A stretch of 64,000 bases of DNA from Hymenobacter swuensis DY53 (lineage in GTDB: Bacteria; Bacteroidota; Bacteroidia; Cytophagales; Hymenobacteraceae), in NCBI RefSeq assembly GCF_000576555.1, contig NZ_CP007145.1:1240001-1304000 (forward strand), given 5' to 3'. The notes under the pieces are model-generated. The model saw only the letters and a program-made list of their open reading frames with translations, did not search any database and had not been told where the DNA came from. Shown here one piece after another: positions 49,705 through 57,953 of the stretch (positions within the stretch are counted from its first letter, which is position 1; each line of letters opens with the position of its first letter). Both the position numbers and the translations under genes were made by a program.

Positions 49705-50769
49705 TCAGCTGCCACGTCGCCAGATGAAACCATCCAGTACATAGTGGGTAGCCTGCGGAAGAGCCAGCAGAGGCACCAACAGCGCAAGGGCCCAGGAATC
49801 GGATATGGCAGGCAGGTGCTGGAACCAGCCGAATACGGCAGCGTGCTCCCGCCATATCAGCCCGTCCCAGATACCTTCTTCCAGCAGAGCCAGTCCAAAC
49901 AGCACTCCTAGAAACAACGCCACGCCGTTCCGGCCCTGCCACCAGGCGCGCCGTGGGTTGCTGGAGGTGGGCTGACTGGTAGTCCAGATAAGGGCCAAGT
50001 ATGGAATGCCGTGAGCTACCACGTTGAGCAGGGTAAAAGCTAGGTCGCCGTTGAACAGTATGATGCCCACATACCAGGAGGCTGCGGTACCTAGCAGTAA
50101 CAGGTTACGCGGCCAGTTGAAATAGGCAGTGTAGTGCCACAGGCTGCCTTCTTTCACCAGATATACCCCCAAAAGACCCGCATACAGTCCCGTAAGTACG
50201 GTTCGGCCGCCGGGCCAGTCGTGCTGAACGAAGTCGCCTTCCACAAACCAGTTGAAGTTGCGGGGTCGCGAAAGGTGCCACCAAAGCAGCGGATAGATGG
50301 TAGCCGCGTAAATCAGGAGGGTATCCAGCTGCCGGCTGAAGCGCGAGGTTGTTTCGTGGCGGCTGTAGAGGCGCAGGAAACCGTATTGCTGGCGGATAAA
50401 GTGGAACACGGCCGCGTAGGCCAGCACCCGCCAGAACCACAGGCTGCCGCCCAGCCCATGCAGCGCCACCCCGGCCGCGTAGCAGCCCAGCGGTACTGCC
50501 CATAATACCGTGCGAAACTGCCGGCGGCGGCGGACATCGAAATAGGTGCGAAATAAGGTGCTGTATACGTGCGCAACATCAATGAGCACTACCAGTGCCA
50601 CCCAGGCCCATACCGGCATCCGGGTTGAAGTGCGGAAAGCCTGGGGCAGGGCCGCTACCACCAGCAGGGCCAGAAATGGCGGCCCTAAAATCCAGAGCCC
50701 GTCAAATCCTGCCGACCGGATCCAGGGCTGACGGGAGTTGACAAGCGGCGGAGCAGCAGACGTGGGCAT
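49705..50769 (-). CDS. Multi-pass membrane protein of unknown function
   Basis: A 354-residue inner-membrane protein with about eight or nine membrane helices (for example GLWILGPPFLALLVVAALPQ, VWAWVALVVLIDVAHVY, TVLTGLYAGLLGVYLV). Conserved-looking histidines and an arginine sit at helix edges (IDVAHVYSTLFRTY, FHFIRQQYGFLRLYSR). I recognise no family. It follows the gene at 50823 on the same strand, 53 bases on, so they may be co-transcribed. Its relation to the polyamine genes further upstream is not shown. Confidence 0.65.
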   Translation of the reverse strand: MPTSAAPPLVNSRQPWIRSAGFDGLWILGPPFLALLVVAALPQAFRTSTRMPVWAWVALVVLIDVAHVYSTLFRTYFDVRRRRQFRTVLWAVPLGCYAAGVALHGLGGSLWFWRVLAYAAVFHFIRQQYGFLRLYSRHETTSRFSRQLDTLLIYAATIYPLLWWHLSRPRNFNWFVEGDFVQHDWPGGRTVLTGLYAGLLGVYLVKEGSLWHYTAYFNWPRNLLLLGTAASWYVGIILFNGDLAFTLLNVVAHGIPYLALIWTTSQPTSSNPRRAWWQGRNGVALFLGVLFGLALLEEGIWDGLIWREHAAVFGWFQHLPAISDSWALALLVPLLALPQATHYVLDGFIWRRGS

Positions 50770-50822: not shown

Positions 50823-52121
50823 CTAACGCGTACGCGGCGGTTGAGCAGGCGGCAGGTAGTCAACCGGTAGAAACTCGCCCATTTTCTCAAAACCCCAGTA
50901 GCCTTCGGTATACAAAGCCAGCGGGTTGGTGGGCTGGCCGTTGGGTTGCAGTGGCACCTGCGGCTGTTGCAGGTGCAATACCGATACCTGTTTATCGAGG
51001 CCCGCAGGCAATGCCTGGCCGGGAGTGGCATTGCGGGCCGTAAAGGCTACGTACGCTGGGTCGGCGGGTTCCTGATCATAGTATACCAGCAACAGGTCGG
51101 GGAATTGCAGCAGCACTTCCGGTGCGCCGGGCGGTCGGCGGCTGAAGTCGGGAGTAGCCAACGGAGCGGAAAACAGGTACTCCAGTTGGCGCGGCACGCG
51201 TACCAGACGGGCCACTGAATCGTCGAAACGGCCCGGATTGAGAGTCCGGAGGGAAAGGGCTTGGGCCCGCATAAGTACCAGCAGACTATCGGCGCGGGCG
51301 CGGGCAGGGTTTGGCACGCGCCGCAACCGCTGCACCCGGAAGCCGGCTTCGGCTACTCGGTTGTCATACACGCTGCGCAGAAAGTGAGGTAACGAGCCTT
51401 TGTATGCCTGACTGCGGTTGGCTGCCCAGCGTTGCTGCTGCCGGCCGGAGCGGGCTTTCAGCGGCTCAAAAACCGGCGAGCCATAAAAGGACATCCAGCC
51501 TTCGGCGAAATTCAGCCGAAAATCCAGCCCATAGTAGCGGATGCGGTAGCCCAGGGCCTGATTTTCCACCGTCAGGAAATCGGCACACGTAGCCGTCAGC
51601 TCGTTCTTTTCCACGTCGTATTCTACGCGTACAGCCTCGGGGTTGCGAATGCGGCATTGCTGGGAGAAGGTAGTGCTGCCCAGAAATGTGCTGGCAAATT
51701 TCTGGTAATCCTCGGGCTTATTGGGGTGGGGGCGTACCACCACTTCGCCCAGCGCATTGGCACTCGGCGGCAGCCGGAACGTGAGTTGCTGCGGCTCATT
51801 GGCCAAGGTGATAACCTGCCGACGCAGCTCATAGCCTAGATAAGAGGCCACCACTTCATAAGTGCCGGCTGGTACCCGTGCAAAGGAAAATTGTCCGGCA
51901 GCGTCGGTAGTGACTCCCAGCGTGGTATTAGCCAGGAACACGGTGCCAAAGGGCAGCGGCTGCCGCGTTACGGAGTCGAGGACGATGCCACTAAGGGCAC
52001 TTTGCGCCTGTACCTGCGGAGTAGCCAGCAGCAATAACAGCCCCGCGAATAGCCAGTAGCGGGCCTTCCGCGCCAAGGCAATACCTGTTTTACACAGAAC
52101 TGTAAGTGGAATTACGAACAT
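50823..52121 (-). CDS. Carboxypeptidase-regulatory-like domain protein
   Basis: A 432-residue exported protein. A signal peptide (about 20-40; LLLLLATPQVQAQ) is followed by a CarboxypepD_reg-like domain (about 43-125; SGIVLDSVTRQPLPFGTVF) and the phrase GEVVVRPHPNKPED that usually precedes a TonB plug, but no plug or barrel comes after. The rest (FSAPLATPDFSRRPPG and so on) is unknown. The ATG at 52121 lies inside the palindromic operator at 52110-52149; a TTG about 15 codons in is an alternative that leaves the operator in the leader. Confidence 0.7.
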   Translation of the reverse strand: MFVIPLTVLCKTGIALARKARYWLFAGLLLLLATPQVQAQSALSGIVLDSVTRQPLPFGTVFLANTTLGVTTDAAGQFSFARVPAGTYEVVASYLGYELRRQVITLANEPQQLTFRLPPSANALGEVVVRPHPNKPEDYQKFASTFLGSTTFSQQCRIRNPEAVRVEYDVEKNELTATCADFLTVENQALGYRIRYYGLDFRLNFAEGWMSFYGSPVFEPLKARSGRQQQRWAANRSQAYKGSLPHFLRSVYDNRVAEAGFRVQRLRRVPNPARARADSLLVLMRAQALSLRTLNPGRFDDSVARLVRVPRQLEYLFSAPLATPDFSRRPPGAPEVLLQFPDLLLVYYDQEPADPAYVAFTARNATPGQALPAGLDKQVSVLHLQQPQVPLQPNGQPTNPLALYTEGYWGFEKMGEFLPVDYLPPAQPPRTR

Positions 52122-52168: not shown

Positions 52169-53815
52169 TTAGTCTTGTTCGGCCGCTAACAACTCCTGGG
52201 CAGCGCGCACACCTTGGTAAAATCCTTCCTCAAATATAGAGAGGCCGCTTAGATCGGTATGGGCGAAGAATAGTTTGTTTTGCCAGGGTCGGGCAGCAGC
52301 GGCTCGGGCTGCACCCCACACAAAGCCGGGCGTAGGGGCTATCATACCGTGGCCCCACACCCAGACATCGGCACGCTGCACCAGTGGTGTAATGCCAGGA
52401 TGAGCAGTTTCCAGCTCAGCCAACGTGCGACGGACCCACTCATCGTAGCTGGTTTGGTAGGCCTGGCGGCGGGTGGCGGTGGGGTCAGCGGCGGGTAGGG
52501 GCAGATAATAGGTAATGACTTGCGGCCCGCCAGCTGATTGGCTCAGGCTTTGATGCCACGCACTCACATAGCCTACTGACTCCGTCCCGTACAGCACATT
52601 ATCCCAGCTGAGCGGCTGGCCGGGACCTTGTGGTAAGCCGGCTACCGTGAGGTTCACCACGGCCCATGGGGCGCGGTGGCACGGTAGCGGCCGCTGGGCC
52701 GCCGGGGGCAAACTGGTTATCAGTCGCTCAGTAATGAACAAAGGCGTGGCCATAATAACGCGGCGGGCCGCTACGCGCGTCGTCTGGCGGGTTGTCACGT
52801 CGAAGCAGTCTACTGCCAAGCCGGTCGGCGTGTCGTGCAGGGCGTAGGCCACGGTATTGGGGCGAATGGGAGCAGAAGCCTGCCGCCGCAGTTGTTCCAC
52901 CAGAAAGCCGTTGCCTTCGGGCCAGGTTAATACGTCGGAGGCCGTGGCGTTATGGGCCTGGCCCTTGCGTGATGCAAAGTAGTGCAGACCCGCCCACGCC
53001 GATACCTGAGCCGCCGAGGCTCCGTAATCGTCACGGCAGCTATAGTCCAGATACCAGCGAAGGTGAGGACTGGTGAAACGGTGGGCATCGAGCCAGGCGG
53101 CAAACGTCTGCACGTCCAGCTTCCGAAACTGCTCATCCTGGGAAGACTCCTGCACCGGAATCCGGAAGGCGTCGCGGCCGTCCTGACCCCGGGCTTGGCG
53201 CAGGTCTTCAATTAGTTGAAAAAACCGGGCAATCTGCTCCTTCTCAGCCGGGGGCACCCCCAACTCCGGTACCAACCCGGTTTGCCAGTGCCCGTGCAGA
53301 AACAGCCGCTCTTCGGGGTCGTGGCACAGGTGGTAGTCGTTGTAGATGGGCAGTCCGGAGGCGGCATCGAAGCCGGTAATTATGCTTGCTTCCTGCAGGA
53401 ACCGGAGCAGCGCGTGGTTGCGCACGTCGGGGATGGGCAGGTAGTGAGCCCCCCAGGGATAAGCGGATACCTCGTTGCGGCCGGCCCGGGAGTTGCCGCC
53501 GGGCTGCTCATCCAGCTCCACCAGCAGCACCTGCTCTGGTTTCATGCCCTGGCGCTCCAATTCGCGTCGGGCCGTGAGGCCCGCTACACCGCCGCCTATA
53601 ATCACTACCTCTACTGTTTCGGTGCGGGTAGGAGCGGGCAGCCGGGCCGGGGCGCGTAGCAGATGGCCGGTGGCGTGGTTGGCCCCATGCATACTCCCGC
53701 GGATGTGGCTGCGCCCGGTACCCGGCGCGCACGACTCCAGCCCTGCCAGCGGTGCCAGTAATAGCCCTGCACTGCCTAGGGCAGTTTTCTGCAGGAAATG
53801 GCGGCGGCTGGACAT
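52169..53815 (-). CDS. Tat-exported FAD-dependent amine-oxidase-like protein
   Basis: A 548-residue flavoprotein. The first residues SSRRHFLQK fit the twin-arginine motif and are followed by a hydrophobic run ending in LESC, possibly a Tat lipoprotein. The FAD-binding Rossmann motif is VVIIGGGVAGLTARREL (about 68-84), followed by ELDEQPGGNSRAG. The middle and C-terminus (MATPLFITERLI) resemble amine oxidase or phytoene-desaturase folds. It begins 134 bases after the spermidine synthase gene on the same strand. A link to polyamine oxidation is inferred from position only; the substrate is unknown. Confidence 0.8.
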   Translation of the reverse strand: MSSRRHFLQKTALGSAGLLLAPLAGLESCAPGTGRSHIRGSMHGANHATGHLLRAPARLPAPTRTETVEVVIIGGGVAGLTARRELERQGMKPEQVLLVELDEQPGGNSRAGRNEVSAYPWGAHYLPIPDVRNHALLRFLQEASIITGFDAASGLPIYNDYHLCHDPEERLFLHGHWQTGLVPELGVPPAEKEQIARFFQLIEDLRQARGQDGRDAFRIPVQESSQDEQFRKLDVQTFAAWLDAHRFTSPHLRWYLDYSCRDDYGASAAQVSAWAGLHYFASRKGQAHNATASDVLTWPEGNGFLVEQLRRQASAPIRPNTVAYALHDTPTGLAVDCFDVTTRQTTRVAARRVIMATPLFITERLITSLPPAAQRPLPCHRAPWAVVNLTVAGLPQGPGQPLSWDNVLYGTESVGYVSAWHQSLSQSAGGPQVITYYLPLPAADPTATRRQAYQTSYDEWVRRTLAELETAHPGITPLVQRADVWVWGHGMIAPTPGFVWGAARAAAARPWQNKLFFAHTDLSGLSIFEEGFYQGVRAAQELLAAEQD

Positions 53816-53949: not shown

Positions 53950-55521
53950 TCAGTGCACGTACGGCCCCCAGTCGTCCTCGAAGTAACGAACCAGGGCTTG
54001 GTTGTTGAGTTGGTTGATGTCGGTGGGAATTTCGCTCATGTCAGGCGGGAAGAAACGCATGTCGCGGATGGTGGCGGGGGTCACGTAGCGCAGGCCGGCG
54101 GGCAGGGGGCCGGCATCGGGCCGCCAGTGGGCATTGCGGCCGGCCAGCACAAAGCCCCACTCCCCGAACGAGGGCACGTAACAATGGTAGGGCAGGGTAG
54201 TGAAGCCGGCGGCCTGCAGGGTGTGGGCCACGCACCAGAACGAGCGGCGTGCCACGTAGGGTGAGGTACTTTGCACCACCACCCAGCCGCCCGGAGCCAG
54301 CCGCTGCTCCAAAGCCCGGTAAAACGCCGCCGAGTAGAGCTTGCCGATGGAGTAGTTGCCCGGGTCGGGGAAGTCCACCACGATGCAGTCGTAGCGGCTG
54401 GTATCCTGACGCACCCACTGGTAGGCGTCGCCGTTGATAACCTGGACTTTGGGGTGGAGCAAAGCGCGGTGGTTGAGGGCCAGCAGCATCTCGTTGCGCT
54501 GAAACAGCCGCGTCATGCCCGCATCAAGGTCCACCAGCCGGATGCGCTGGAGCTGCGGGTACTTCAGCAACTCGCGCACCGCTAGGCCGTCGCCGCCGCC
54601 CAGCACCAGCACCTGCCGGGCCCGGGGCAGGGCCTGCATGGCCGGGTGCACCAGGGCCTCGTGGTAGCGGTACTCATCGAGGGAGCTGAACTGCAGGTTG
54701 CCGTTGAGAAACAGCCGCAGCTCCCGCTGATTTTTGGTGAGCACCAGCCGCTGGTAGGTGGTGCTCTTGGAGTAAATCACTTGGTCCTGAAACGCCATGC
54801 CCTCGGTGTAGGTCTGGATGCGCTCAGCGTAGCCGAAGCCCACGCCCAGGGCCAGCAAAGACGCCACCAGTGCCCCGGTGAGGCCGCGCCGGAAGGGCCT
54901 GGTTTCGGGGAAGCGGTACAGGGCCACGCCGGCCACCACCACGTTCAGCGCCCCGCACAGCAACGACGTACGAATCAGGCCCAGTTGCGGCACCAGCACC
55001 AGCGGGAATACCAGGGAGGCCAGCAGCGCCCCGATGTAGTCGAAGGTGAACACGCGGGAAACCAAGTCTTTAAACTCGAAGCGGTTTTCCAGAATCCGCA
55101 TCAATAGTGGAATTTCCAGCCCCACCAGCACGCCTGTAAGACCCACTAGTGCGTACAGAATCAGCCGGAACGACACCACGTATTCGAACAGCACGAACAG
55201 CAGCGGGGCCGAGAAGCCGCCCACCAGCCCCACCAGAATTTCGAGCCGGATAAACCACCGCAGCAGGGAACCGCCCAGGTAGCGCGACAGCCAGGAACCG
55301 ATGCCCATCGAGAACAGATACGCCCCGATAATGGTGGAAAACTGCATCACCGAGTCGCCGAGCAGATAGGATGCTAGGGTGCCCGCAATCAGCTCGTAGA
55401 TCAGTCCGCAGGTGGCAATGACAAACACGGAGCCCAGCAGCAGCGCCGAGCGGTAATCCGTCGGGGCGGTGGCCAGCCCGGGAGCTGGCCGCCGCTTCCG
55501 GCGCACGGGTACTCTATCCAT
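53950..55521 (-). CDS. Membrane-fused spermidine synthase-like enzyme
   Basis: A 523-residue protein. The first 235 residues have about seven membrane helices (SALLLGSVFVIATCGLIYEL, LILYALVGLTGVLVGLEI). The C-terminal half is a spermidine-synthase-type methyltransferase fold with VLVLGGGDG, RLVDLD and the catalytic VDFPDP (Asp383, Asp386). The canonical enzyme is soluble, so here aminopropyl transfer is tied to the membrane. The start overlaps DUF350 by eight bases, giving tight coupling. The exact acceptor amine is unknown; spermidine is not proven. Confidence 0.85.
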   Translation of the reverse strand: MDRVPVRRKRRPAPGLATAPTDYRSALLLGSVFVIATCGLIYELIAGTLASYLLGDSVMQFSTIIGAYLFSMGIGSWLSRYLGGSLLRWFIRLEILVGLVGGFSAPLLFVLFEYVVSFRLILYALVGLTGVLVGLEIPLLMRILENRFEFKDLVSRVFTFDYIGALLASLVFPLVLVPQLGLIRTSLLCGALNVVVAGVALYRFPETRPFRRGLTGALVASLLALGVGFGYAERIQTYTEGMAFQDQVIYSKSTTYQRLVLTKNQRELRLFLNGNLQFSSLDEYRYHEALVHPAMQALPRARQVLVLGGGDGLAVRELLKYPQLQRIRLVDLDAGMTRLFQRNEMLLALNHRALLHPKVQVINGDAYQWVRQDTSRYDCIVVDFPDPGNYSIGKLYSAAFYRALEQRLAPGGWVVVQSTSPYVARRSFWCVAHTLQAAGFTTLPYHCYVPSFGEWGFVLAGRNAHWRPDAGPLPAGLRYVTPATIRDMRFFPPDMSEIPTDINQLNNQALVRYFEDDWGPYVH

Positions 55522-55729
55522 GAATGGCGGAACTGATAATCAGGGCTACGGCAATCATAAACGCCGCCGCCATAATGGCCAAAGCCGTGTTGTGCTCCTC
55601 GATAATCTCCTTCCAGAGCATGCGGGGTGTCAGCTTCTCAATCACCACGAAGCTGATAACCAAAATGATGATGCCCAGCACCGAGTAGATGACGGAGGAA
55701 GCAATGAGCTTGAAGTTGAGGTATTCCAT
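55514..55729 (-). CDS. DUF350 membrane protein
   Basis: A 71-residue protein with two membrane helices (IASSVIYSVLGIIILVISFV and LAIMAAAFMIAVALIISSAI) joined by a charged loop EKLTPRMLWKEIIEEHNTA. This is one DUF350 unit, the YjfL type, whose role in the envelope is unknown. Its stop overlaps the spermidine synthase start. The dispersed repeat lies upstream, between it and the 63-residue gene. Confidence 0.85.
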   Translation of the reverse strand: MEYLNFKLIASSVIYSVLGIIILVISFVVIEKLTPRMLWKEIIEEHNTALAIMAAAFMIAVALIISSAIHG

Positions 55730-55783
55730 ATGGGAAGGAGCTAGAAGGGAGGAGGTAAGGAGCTAGGAGTTTTTGGTGGTCAA

Positions 55784-55890
55784 TTGAACGTCATTCCGAG
55801 CGGAGCGAGGAATCTCGCGTGCTGACGATTAGTTACCAGCGTAACGTCAGCACGCGACCTGCTTCGGCTTCGCTTCTGCATGACGTTCAA
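55784..55890. repeat. Diverged palindromic repeat within the polyamine operon
   Basis: Outer ends TTGAACGTCAT (55784-55794) and ATGACGTTCAA (55880-55890) are reverse complements. An inner 13-bp arm at 55815-55827 pairs perfectly with 55845-55857. The outer core resembles the repeat at 1220. It lies in the 190-base gap between the 63-residue gene and DUF350 and may divide or protect the operon transcript. Confidence 0.75.
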
Positions 55891-55919
55891 CTGGCAACCG
55901 ACAACTGGCAACTCATAAC

Positions 55920-56111
55920 TCACTTGTGAAAATACGTGGCGCGTCCGCCGGAGCCGTGGGAGCCGCCGGTGCCGTTGAGGTTGGGTTCCTGTTCGTTGTC
56001 GTCGCCGAGCAGACGGACACCCGAAAGGCCGGCCCACACGAAACCACCGTAGGTGAGGGCCGCAAACAGGGCGTAAAATCGGATTTTCCAGAGGGAGCGA
56101 AGCCAGGTCAT
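55920..56111 (-). CDS. 63-residue membrane protein in the polyamine operon
   Basis: A short protein with one helix (IRFYALFAALTYGGFVWAGLS, about 10-30) after a basic start, then an acidic/Gly-rich tail ending GSGGRATYFHK. It starts 16 bases after the DUF4178 gene, so it belongs to the operon. No family recognised. Confidence 0.65.
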   Translation of the reverse strand: MTWLRSLWKIRFYALFAALTYGGFVWAGLSGVRLLGDDNEQEPNLNGTGGSHGSGGRATYFHK

Positions 56112-56127
56112 AGCAGGTGGCGGGAAA

Positions 56128-57468
56128 TCAGGAGTCGGAGGAAGCGTAGGGACTGAAGTCGCTGTTCTCCCAGCGGCTGCTTTCGTGGAAGGCCCGGCGA
56201 GCGTAGAGGATGCCCGGATACAACAACAGTAACACCAGGGCCAGCCCGGCGTTGGTACCGGCTGTAGCGTGGGCTTCCACGGTGGCCCGAAACTGAATGG
56301 GAGCAGGGCTGGTGGGCTCGGTGATAGGGTAGAAATTGAGATGGTACGGCCCGGCCGGCACGCTACTCAGCAGCTTCTCGGTGTCGCGGGTGCCTTCGCT
56401 CCAGCTTTCCCCCTCCTCCACGCCGGCGTAGTATTCCATGCTGCCGGTGGCGGCAAACTGCTGGCCGGTCTGCTCATTCACCAGCGAGAAAGGCAATTCC
56501 ACCCAATTATTATTCACATCGGCCCACAGCTTCACGGTAAGGGCCCCGGTGCCGGGCACCGTGAACGAGGGCGACACCAGCACGGTGCGCTCAGCCGGCG
56601 TGGCCAGCAGCGGGTTGCCCAACGAATCGGTAACGGGCTGTACAGGCGTAGGCTCGCTCACAAACTCCTTATTGAATACCGGCTCGTTGCCCCAAAGCAT
56701 CAGGTAGATGTGCGTTGCCACTACCAGCAAAGCCATCAGAAGTGAAAGAGTGCTGAGCTGGGACCAATAGGCTTGGCCCGGGGCGGGCTGGGCGGCCCCC
56801 ACACCGGTGCGGTACGGCAGCTGCTCCGGGGGCATCCCAAAAGCCTCGGCTACTTCCCTCGGCTCCAGGTGGCGGGCCTTGAACCAATGATTGTGCTTCT
56901 TGTTCTGCCGCTCCCGGACCAGCATCAGGGGCGGACTGATGTACTCGGAAATCGTCAGGCTTTCGTCGGCCAGCACGTTCCAGTCGAACTCTCCGGCGGC
57001 ATACAGAATGTGGGGCGAGTAACGGTTGTAGAGGCGGAAATCGGTTTCTGGTACTTCCACCATGCCGCCTATGCTCACGCGGTACTGCTCCTCAGTTGGT
57101 TCAAGCAGCAACCAATGGCCCTGAAATACGGCCAGCTGCCGATAAGTGCCGGTTGCTTCCTCGCGTAGCTGAAATTCTTCCCAGCGGTACGACGCATTTT
57201 TGACCTCGCAACGCCACATGTAGCCCGTTACGCGGTAGGTGTTACCCTCCAGCTGGCCGGTGCTGCCCAGTGCCAGCGCGGGTTTCTGGCGTGGTACATC
57301 CTTAAACTTGCGCAGCTTCTTGGGCGCGCCGGTTTCGGGGTATTCAAAAAACGTGTTGCACTTCCGGCATCCGAAGAAGGCGCTGTGCACGGCATCGTAG
57401 TACGGCACCTCGTGGCCGCAGTCGGGGCATTTCACGGCCGCCGGGGCCACGCTTGGGGGCGCACTCAT
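56128..57468 (-). CDS. Zinc-ribbon DUF4178 membrane protein
   Basis: A 446-residue protein. The N-terminus has a four-Cys zinc ribbon (Cys14, Cys17, Cys34, Cys37 in KCPDCGHE and GCRKCNTF). A DUF4178 domain covers about 50-195 (RVTGYMWRCEVKNASYRWEEF). One membrane segment lies near 240-260 and a second near 410-430, enclosing a beta-rich domain that should lie outside the cytosol. The start overlaps the speD stop as ATGA. DUF4178 is known in PspA-linked envelope gene sets; the molecular role is unknown. Confidence 0.85.
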   Translation of the reverse strand: MSAPPSVAPAAVKCPDCGHEVPYYDAVHSAFFGCRKCNTFFEYPETGAPKKLRKFKDVPRQKPALALGSTGQLEGNTYRVTGYMWRCEVKNASYRWEEFQLREEATGTYRQLAVFQGHWLLLEPTEEQYRVSIGGMVEVPETDFRLYNRYSPHILYAAGEFDWNVLADESLTISEYISPPLMLVRERQNKKHNHWFKARHLEPREVAEAFGMPPEQLPYRTGVGAAQPAPGQAYWSQLSTLSLLMALLVVATHIYLMLWGNEPVFNKEFVSEPTPVQPVTDSLGNPLLATPAERTVLVSPSFTVPGTGALTVKLWADVNNNWVELPFSLVNEQTGQQFAATGSMEYYAGVEEGESWSEGTRDTEKLLSSVPAGPYHLNFYPITEPTSPAPIQFRATVEAHATAGTNAGLALVLLLLYPGILYARRAFHESSRWENSDFSPYASSDS

Positions 57469-57818
57469 CGGCGGACTTCGGTTTTGCTCTGCTCCGTTGC
57501 CTCGAAGAAAGCCAGCGTGGCGGCGTATAGCTCCCGGGCGCGGTCGGCGTTGTCGCGCCGGAAGTTGGAAAGAAACACGTCGAAGGTGGCCAGCCCATGC
57601 TCGGGCCAGGTATGAATGCTTAAGTGCGACTCGGTAAGGGCCACTACGGCCGTAAAGCCGCCGGCCGGAAAGGCGTGGTAGGCTGCACCCACTGCCGTCA
57701 GGCCCTGGGCCGCTACCTGGGCTTCAAAAAAGGCCTGGCAGGCCGGCATATCCAGCAGTTGGGGTGCCGGGGCAGTAAACGTGGCCAGAATATGCAGGCC
57801 CGGAGCGTACGTAGTCAT
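57465..57818 (-). CDS. speD: SpeD-like pyruvoyl decarboxylase, Cys replaced by Ser
   Basis: A 117-residue prokaryotic AdoMetDC homologue. The self-cleavage site is Glu63-Ser64 in LTESHLSIHTWPE, with His69 in the expected position. In the Thermotoga enzyme the cleaved serine is followed 20 residues later by Cys83, the proton donor; here the equivalent is Ser84 (VFLSN in place of VFTCG). A Thr stands at the Ser55 site. The substrate may therefore not be S-adenosylmethionine; SpeD homologues that act on ornithine or arginine are known. First gene of the module; the start MTTYAPGLH at 57818 is preferred. Confidence 0.85.
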   Translation of the reverse strand: MTTYAPGLHILATFTAPAPQLLDMPACQAFFEAQVAAQGLTAVGAAYHAFPAGGFTAVVALTESHLSIHTWPEHGLATFDVFLSNFRRDNADRARELYAATLAFFEATEQSKTEVRR

Positions 57819-57953
57819 CGGCAGCAATACCATAACGGCCCCCGATTACCGGGCGGCCTTATCGGCAATACTACGCAGGCCCGGGCCGGTATCAAAACCC
57901 ACGGCCCGCAACGGAAGCTACGGGGCGCGGGGCTGGGGGGAAGAGGAGGTGGC

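Follow-up and report, generated by a model that had tools for sequence, protein, structure and literature searches.

What is the substrate of the membrane-bound spermidine synthases of bacteria? The question is raised by an operon in a 64,000-nucleotide stretch (the window; C3:1240001-1304000) of the 5.25 Mb genome of Hymenobacter swuensis DY53, a bacterium of soil and water. A preliminary description had placed five genes there: a decarboxylase (SpeD), a DUF4178 membrane protein, a 63-residue membrane peptide, a DUF350 protein and a spermidine synthase (SpdSyn) domain fused to membrane helices (the fusion). All five reading frames lie where it placed them, on the minus strand. It left the acceptor as a lipid, peptide or envelope molecule. 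The data favour a peptide, whose C-terminus had gone unremarked: the 63-residue product ends in an invariant His-Lys (HK). With belief and doubt almost balanced, we suggest from sequence comparison that an exported tail of this kind may accept the aminopropyl group on its C-terminal lysine. A named residue on a named protein makes the question testable.

The peptide was followed in named genomes, which were scanned with a synthase alignment of five sequences (A1). We used the best 80 of at least 544 synthase relatives (loci L044-L123), drawn from Hymenobacter, Spirosoma, Larkinella, Pedobacter, Mucilaginibacter, Chitinophaga and others; among the matches listed, the nearest named relatives by synthase are Hymenobacter metallilatus (98%) and H. 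rigui (96%). A small peptide was found near the synthase with a hidden Markov model (HMM) in 69 loci and was read by eye in 10 more. It ends in His-Lys-COOH in 69/69 and 10/10 of these, that is, in 79 of the 80 loci. The 80th (L097) starts inside the synthase, where it is cut by the contig. The second peptide copies of L091 and L096 have the same end. The peptides, whose start codons were set by rule, are about 63 residues long (51-73) and consist of a single span close to the N-terminus followed by a tail of 21-44 residues. They are diverse (30 representatives below 50% identity, nine below 30%). In their alignment the last two columns alone reach 100%, and one glycine column reaches 99%. Both codons of His and both of Lys are used in the 79 loci, as are all three stops, and selection is therefore on the protein. 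As a background, these loci contain 995 long frames, of which 103 end in lysine and only four in HK. A terminal lysine is found in 0/78, 3/79, 0/67, 0/80, 4/79 and 7/69 of the other operon proteins.

The rest of the gene set was followed in the same loci. HMM matches near the synthase (itself present in 80/80) were obtained for SpeD in 78 loci, DUF4178 in 79 and DUF350 in 67, and also for two genes further leftward that the preliminary description had overlooked, encoding a flavoprotein (79) and a 354-residue membrane protein (71). These two also belong to the operon. The strict order SpeD, DUF4178, peptide, DUF350, synthase, flavoprotein, 354-residue protein, with gaps allowed, is kept in 71/80 loci; in six more a gene is repeated or a frame split with the order unchanged, in two (L091 and L096) the DUF4178-peptide-DUF350 block is duplicated, and in one (L119) SpeD is last. 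The five genes are thus conserved together, and their linkage is not due to chance. HMMs alone recover all seven members in 50/80 loci. Some missing members are explained by contig ends (L065, L079, L089, L097). Others are real: in 11 loci the peptide gene lies less than 140 bases from the synthase, which shows that DUF350 is missing there, and the 354-residue gene is absent from six loci with enough sequence (L072, L076, L077, L081, L087, L100). Both proteins are therefore dispensable in places. The L119 operon (L119:7204-13787) comes from a metagenome-assembled genome labelled Oligoflexia and carries a Cys-type SpeD; it may represent interphylum transfer or a binning error. In Spirosoma telluris (L070:10535-10765 onward) the flavoprotein match is spread over two frames. 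A CarboxypepD_reg-like gene lies on the same strand between the flavoprotein and 354-residue genes in 6/80 loci and is probably a passenger.

Table 1. Features of the operon region in window coordinates. Pfam cut-offs (bits): AdoMet_dc 25, DUF4178 25, DUF350 26, Spermine_synth 22.9, NAD_binding_8 21.9. AdoMet, S-adenosylmethionine; AdoMetDC, AdoMet decarboxylase; dcAdoMet, decarboxylated AdoMet; aa, amino acids.
Feature	Position	Strand	Evidence
SpeD, class 1b AdoMet decarboxylase homologue, 122 aa, putative dcAdoMet source	57465-57833	-	AdoMet_dc 72.4 bits
Codon of SpeD Ser89, position of catalytic Cys (C83 of T. maritima)	57567-57569	-	Alignment to solved AdoMetDCs
DUF4178 membrane protein, 446 aa, N-terminal CxxC pairs	56128-57468	-	DUF4178 58.5 bits
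Small membrane peptide, 63 aa, ends Tyr-Phe-His-Lys, proposed acceptor	55920-56111	-	HK end across loci
Codons for invariant C-terminal His-Lys of the 63-aa peptide	55923-55928	-	HK end across loci
DUF350 membrane protein, short form, 71 aa	55514-55729	-	DUF350 50.6 bits
Membrane-SpdSyn fusion, 523 aa, seven predicted spans then aminopropyltransferase domain	53950-55521	-	Pfam, NCBIfam, AlphaFold2
Flavin oxidoreductase, 548 aa, twin-arginine signal and lipoprotein-type Cys	52169-53815	-	NAD_binding_8 35.8 bits
CarboxypepD_reg-like protein, between flavoprotein and 354-aa genes	50823-52121	-	74.3 bits
354-aa multi-span membrane protein, invariant His 67, 123, 253, 342	49705-50769	-	71/80 loci

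The frames needed some correction. That of SpeD is real, but in full it runs to 57833, and the start previously given (57818) is its second in-frame ATG. The genes had been said to overlap or to be separated by short gaps: speD and the DUF4178 gene do share four bases, and the DUF350 and fusion genes eight, but 190 bases separate the 63-residue gene from that of DUF350. The zinc ribbon described for the DUF4178 protein is visible as CxxC pairs, but no zinc-ribbon family is above its cut-off. No Pfam or NCBIfam model matched the 63-residue protein. For the 354-residue protein no Pfam family was found, and its AlphaFold2 model (predicted local distance difference test, pLDDT, 91.2) has no clear fold match in the PDB; its four histidines are invariant (39 sequences).

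To place the operon among its relatives we used a sample of 198 Bacteroidota genomes. A full-length fusion at 35% identity or more occurs in 12 of these, and its distribution is therefore patchy; there are two other sampled genomes of the same genus, one of them without it. The layout of the operon described here is found in H. swuensis itself and in L033-L036. A PspA-type layout is found in L039-L041 and L042 (PspA, CesT/Tir and DUF4178 being assigned in L042 by Pfam and the remainder by similarity of protein starts). L043 is a version with an ion channel, and in L037 and L038 the fusion occurs together with a GspS-like ligase. Small Cys-rich lipoprotein-like genes lie 3' of these last two fusions on the other strand (L037:11308-11688, L038:10850-12031). 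SpeD is present in 12/12 fusion genomes compared with 43/198 overall (hypergeometric 3e-9), although away from the fusion locus in G005, G066 and G087. The fusion is the sole match to the synthase query in 8/12 fusion genomes; H. swuensis has a second, weak match and three others a second, synthase-like match.

A terminal lysine is not confined to the small peptides of the 80 loci. In this sample the HK end is also found in L033, L034 and L035, and in L036 the peptide, joined to DUF4178 in a single protein, ends SHK. The lipoprotein of the PspA-type operons and L043 ends in Gly-Lys (GK) in 5/5 cases, and GK-COOH is present in 119 of the best 120 of its 397 homologues (one ends RRR). No Pfam model scores above cut-off with this lipoprotein, which occurs in 5/198 genomes, always adjoining the fusion or one gene away (chance 3e-7). 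By position it is the Ctha_1186 type of Ravi et al. (PMC11237479). Among plasmids, 26 records matched, 12 of them over 80% or more of the fusion. Six loci were examined, and a C-terminal lysine was found on a tail in four: a Novosphingobium 48-residue peptide ending PSHK, accompanied by DUF350, the fusion, a flavoprotein and a Cys-type SpeD; a Burkholderia arboris peptide ending YGSHK, with fusion followed by flavoprotein and a Cys-type SpeD; an Alteromonas 510-residue protein ending SSGK, whose homologues end GK in 16/17 cases and GN in one; and a Tritonibacter 64-residue tail ending VK. The carriers (small peptides, 233-residue and 510-residue lipoproteins) are dissimilar. One could suppose that the tail serves as a sensor or binds polyamines or metal, and that another envelope protein is modified. 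The tails are His-rich and charged, with a His/Ser/Gly-rich linker, and DUF1190 is described by Ravi et al. as a metal-chelating lipoprotein, with stress sensing suggested (PMC11237479). However, it is the linker that varies while the final two residues are fixed, and His is missing from the GK-ended tails, so that we consider a sensor improbable.

The tail as acceptor has a parallel in Escherichia coli, where YjfM lies between DUF350 (YjfL) and YjfC, and YgiB before YgiC. YgiC and YjfC are named peptide-spermidine ligases in RefSeq, a naming that reportedly originates with Pederick et al. in 2023. Like the operon of the window, YgiB/YgiC and YjfM/YjfC combine an exported tail of invariant C-terminus with an adjacent polyamine enzyme, and one pair also has DUF350 (YjfL) and a PspA-like protein (YjfJ) nearby. 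There are also differences. The E. coli pairs use an ATP-grasp ligase on the carboxyl end of Gly-Gly (GG; YjfM ends HWGG and YgiB SMGG), whereas the window has an aminopropyltransferase and a lysine end, HK and not GG. The ligases and the synthase have no sequence relation, and none of the nine proteins of the operon region matches the GspS-like ligase PF03738. The GG end is kept in 117 of the best 120 of 1008 YgiB homologues, mostly close relatives. A tail adjoins a PF03738 ligase in five sampled Bacteroidota genomes, ending GG in L037, L038, H. swuensis and G072 and GS in G190. H. swuensis therefore carries gene sets of both kinds, aminopropyl and ligase. Its ligase set lies outside the window (L181:4971-6977, about C3:1435970-1437976), with a 247-residue tail ending RGFGG beside a ligase scoring 284.5 bits. 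A spermidine amide on glycine is Gly-CO-NH-(CH2)4-NH-(CH2)3-NH2, and an aminopropyl-lysine after glycine would be Gly-CO-NH-CH(COOH)-(CH2)4-NH-(CH2)3-NH2, one carboxyl-bearing carbon apart. Given this similar shape, the proposed product may work in the same way as those of the E. coli pairs.

A different possibility is that the acceptor is a lipid or a small molecule of the envelope and the peptide an accessory subunit, held by its HK on the synthase, on the flavoprotein or at the membrane surface. Docking through a C-terminal motif is common, and every enzyme of the operon except SpeD is membrane-bound or exported. Membrane structure is also considered by Ravi et al. (PMC11237479, part of the text). 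We nevertheless think this rather unlikely: an identical terminal lysine on dissimilar carriers is more simply explained by an acceptor than by a single docking site, and in the parallel peptide-ligase system it is GG that occupies this place.

The fusion itself is not a canonical soluble SpeE. It is below the cut-off of the speE model TIGR00417 (125 bits against 249.55) and is fused to membrane spans, while scoring 113.5 bits with Spermine_synth in Pfam and 667 bits with NCBIfam NF002956/PRK03612 (cut-off 472), a family named polyamine aminopropyltransferase. An AlphaFold2 model from 35 sequences (alignment A5; pLDDT 86.7, predicted template modelling score 0.68) gives helices at 23-54, 57-81, 86-111, 118-144, 150-203 and 205-230, followed by the SpdSyn fold. 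Helix 150-203 is long enough for two spans, and the model is compatible with the roughly seven membrane helices described earlier. Its best PDB match is the Thermus triamine/agmatine aminopropyltransferase (template modelling score to the target 0.71-0.76), and the GGGDG, D[FY]PDP and YHE motifs are present in 80/80 loci. The SpeD and Spermine_synth domains each occur once in the genome, both in this operon.

The product of SpeD and the fusion might be no more than spermidine or some other free polyamine, perhaps formed at the membrane. The name of the NCBIfam family suits this, as do catalytic domains and motifs intact except for the Cys of SpeD. We consider it very unlikely, since free spermidine needs no dedicated exported partners and bacterial fusions have been shown, according to the part available of a paper citing Li et al. 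2019, not to be involved in spermidine or spermine synthesis (PMC12803844). H. swuensis also has a deoxyhypusine-synthase homologue above cut-off, a kind of protein that has been named homospermidine synthase, SpeY (PMC10407285, part of the text).

The altered Cys deserves attention. In an alignment with solved AdoMetDCs, Ser89 of SpeD falls on their catalytic Cys, the active-site Ser and His being kept, and Ser stands here in 77/78 loci (Cys in L119). Elsewhere the position is Ser in L034 and Cys in L035-L038, L042, L043, Alteromonas and Novosphingobium. Judged by alignment, the clade is a natural Cys-to-Ser set of SpeD proteins. The protein scores 65.6 with NCBIfam SAM_DCase_Bsu, below the cut-off of 75.65. 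In the part available of PMC10407285, S63, H68 and C83 are needed for AdoMetDC processing and catalysis. All three are expected to be kept even in the ornithine and arginine decarboxylase offshoots (same source), and with the third replaced it could be argued that the Ser-type SpeD has ceased to act on AdoMet and yields a different amine, in which case the operon does not use the aminopropyl donor. We give this hardly any weight, and marginally less than free polyamine synthesis. The Cys is kept in the same or close layouts (L035, L036, Novosphingobium), and the pathway is thus independent of the change. SpeD also keeps the Pro of HTWPE, and in PMC10407285, again in part, a Pro distinguishes AdoMetDC from arginine decarboxylases; that the two prolines are the same is our own reading.

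The orientation of the proteins can be predicted from charge. In 35/35 fusion sequences Lys and Arg are more frequent at the N-terminus and in loops 2, 4 and 6 than in loops 1, 3 and 5; with seven spans, this would put the N-terminus inside and the catalytic domain outside. The small peptide has its N-terminus inside by the same measure in 68/79 cases (reverse in three, tied in eight), and the flavoprotein carries a basic pair followed by Cys in 76/79. The synthase domain, the tail and the flavoprotein are therefore predicted, with some confidence, to lie on the periplasmic side. The flavoprotein scores above cut-off only with NAD_binding_8, DAO and FAD_binding_2, and not with Amino_oxidase (PF01593), whereas its Novosphingobium counterpart reaches 47.6 bits with PF01593 (cut-off 19.8).

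The gene linkage, the invariant tail and the synthase fold are given by the sequences; from them we infer a chemistry, a side of the membrane and a use. SpeD would decarboxylate AdoMet to provide the aminopropyl donor. The membrane SpdSyn, at the outer face of the inner membrane together with the tail and the flavoprotein, would load the peptide's C-terminal lysine with aminopropyl groups, one or several, at its side-chain amine, so that this lysine stands in for the diamine substrate. The product would be a polyamine-tipped membrane peptide, by analogy with the YgiB/YgiC and YjfM/YjfC pairs, in which a ligase can attach spermidine to a peptide. The dcAdoMet would have to cross the membrane, perhaps through the seven-span domain, DUF350 or the 354-residue protein. 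More speculatively, the flavoprotein might oxidise the added or the lysyl amine to an aldehyde, either linking the tail to the envelope or resetting it.

A number of points weigh against this scheme. The dcAdoMet is made inside, which leaves the donor on the wrong side for an outward synthase domain, and the ATP-using ligase of the parallel system must act inside. A Ser-type SpeD may, to judge from its sequence, be a poor AdoMet decarboxylase. A conserved terminus is by itself no proof, since DUF350 also has one (HG in 49/67), and that of the peptide could be a docking signal instead. In Tritonibacter, V and not H or G precedes the terminal K, and no tail protein was found on the Gemmatirosa and Ensifer plasmids (two of the six examined). 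L037 and L038 (2/12 fusion genomes) combine a GG tail, a ligase and the fusion and are the chief exception to a simple tail rule; there the fusion might lengthen an amine that has already been ligated. Finally, the evidence for modification consists of sequence throughout.

Hypusine in eIF5A and the lysines of diatom silaffins are known cases in which a side-chain amine is extended by polyamine-type groups. They involve different enzymes and internal lysines, and are not bacterial membrane peptides. In its boldest form our proposal is that exported tails dedicated to this purpose, whether HK-ended membrane peptides or GK-ended lipoproteins, have their C-terminal lysine extended by a membrane-bound, outward-facing aminopropyltransferase, giving a hypusine- or silaffin-like mark convergent in shape with the spermidine amide expected from YgiC/YjfC-type ligases. 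This we hold more tentatively, and somewhat below an even chance, because it joins two claims, lysine as acceptor and placement outside.

Membrane-tied aminopropyl chemistry, as suggested in the preliminary description, with an acceptor other than putrescine, fits published work and the single SpeD and Spermine_synth domains of the genome, but as a general interpretation it was already in print; the observation behind it is confirmed and enlarged here. Li, Kurihara, Kim, Liang and Michael (2019, Biochem J 476:2579) reportedly described clusters of AdoMetDC, membrane-SpdSyn fusion and DUF350 whose product is not spermidine, and thousands of bacterial genomes reportedly encode a membrane-fused spermidine synthase with its own AdoMetDC. 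To our knowledge the abstract names no acceptor, flavoprotein, 354-residue protein, lysine-ended peptide or Ser-type SpeD. The window shares with this kind SpeD, DUF350 and the membrane protein fused to a SpdSyn-like domain, but its SpeD has Ser for the active-site Cys, and DUF350 is without a match in 13/80 related loci.

Ravi et al. (2024) described, in the part of the text available, an operon of seven-transmembrane SpdSyn, DUF350, DUF4178, lipoprotein and PspA, with other versions containing AdoMetDC and polyamine oxidase and one with DUF4247 proteins, and considered that polyamines might be sensed or other substrates aminopropylated; their main text as available makes no use of the word lysine (PMC11237479). 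Compared with their PspA-CesT/Tir operon, so far as it is described there, the operon of the window has the SpdSyn fusion, DUF350, DUF4178 and an exported tail protein in common. It has no PspA, CesT/Tir or band-7 gene, a 63-residue peptide instead of the lipoprotein, a short DUF350, a DUF4178 protein with CxxC pairs and spans, and the flavoprotein and 354-residue protein in addition. It is indeed a variant without PspA, as had been supposed: neither of the two PspA_IM30 matches of the genome is in the window. The PspA of H. swuensis at L135:8526-10733 (about C3:1565525-1567732) is accompanied by CesT/Tir-type and membrane genes and not by polyamine genes.

Our literature search found no paper naming a C-terminal lysine as acceptor. 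What this work contributes is a proposed acceptor, a rule for the tails together with the exceptions to it, and a SpeD of the Ser type. If the proposal is correct, it would supply the missing acceptor of the widespread membrane spermidine synthases and a role for operon peptides of 50-70 residues that have no model in the family libraries. It would add a protein modification to those of bacteria and raise the possibility that decarboxylated AdoMet is used outside the cytoplasm. The two DUF350-associated polyamine gene sets would then share one logic, that of a polyamine-tipped exported tail.

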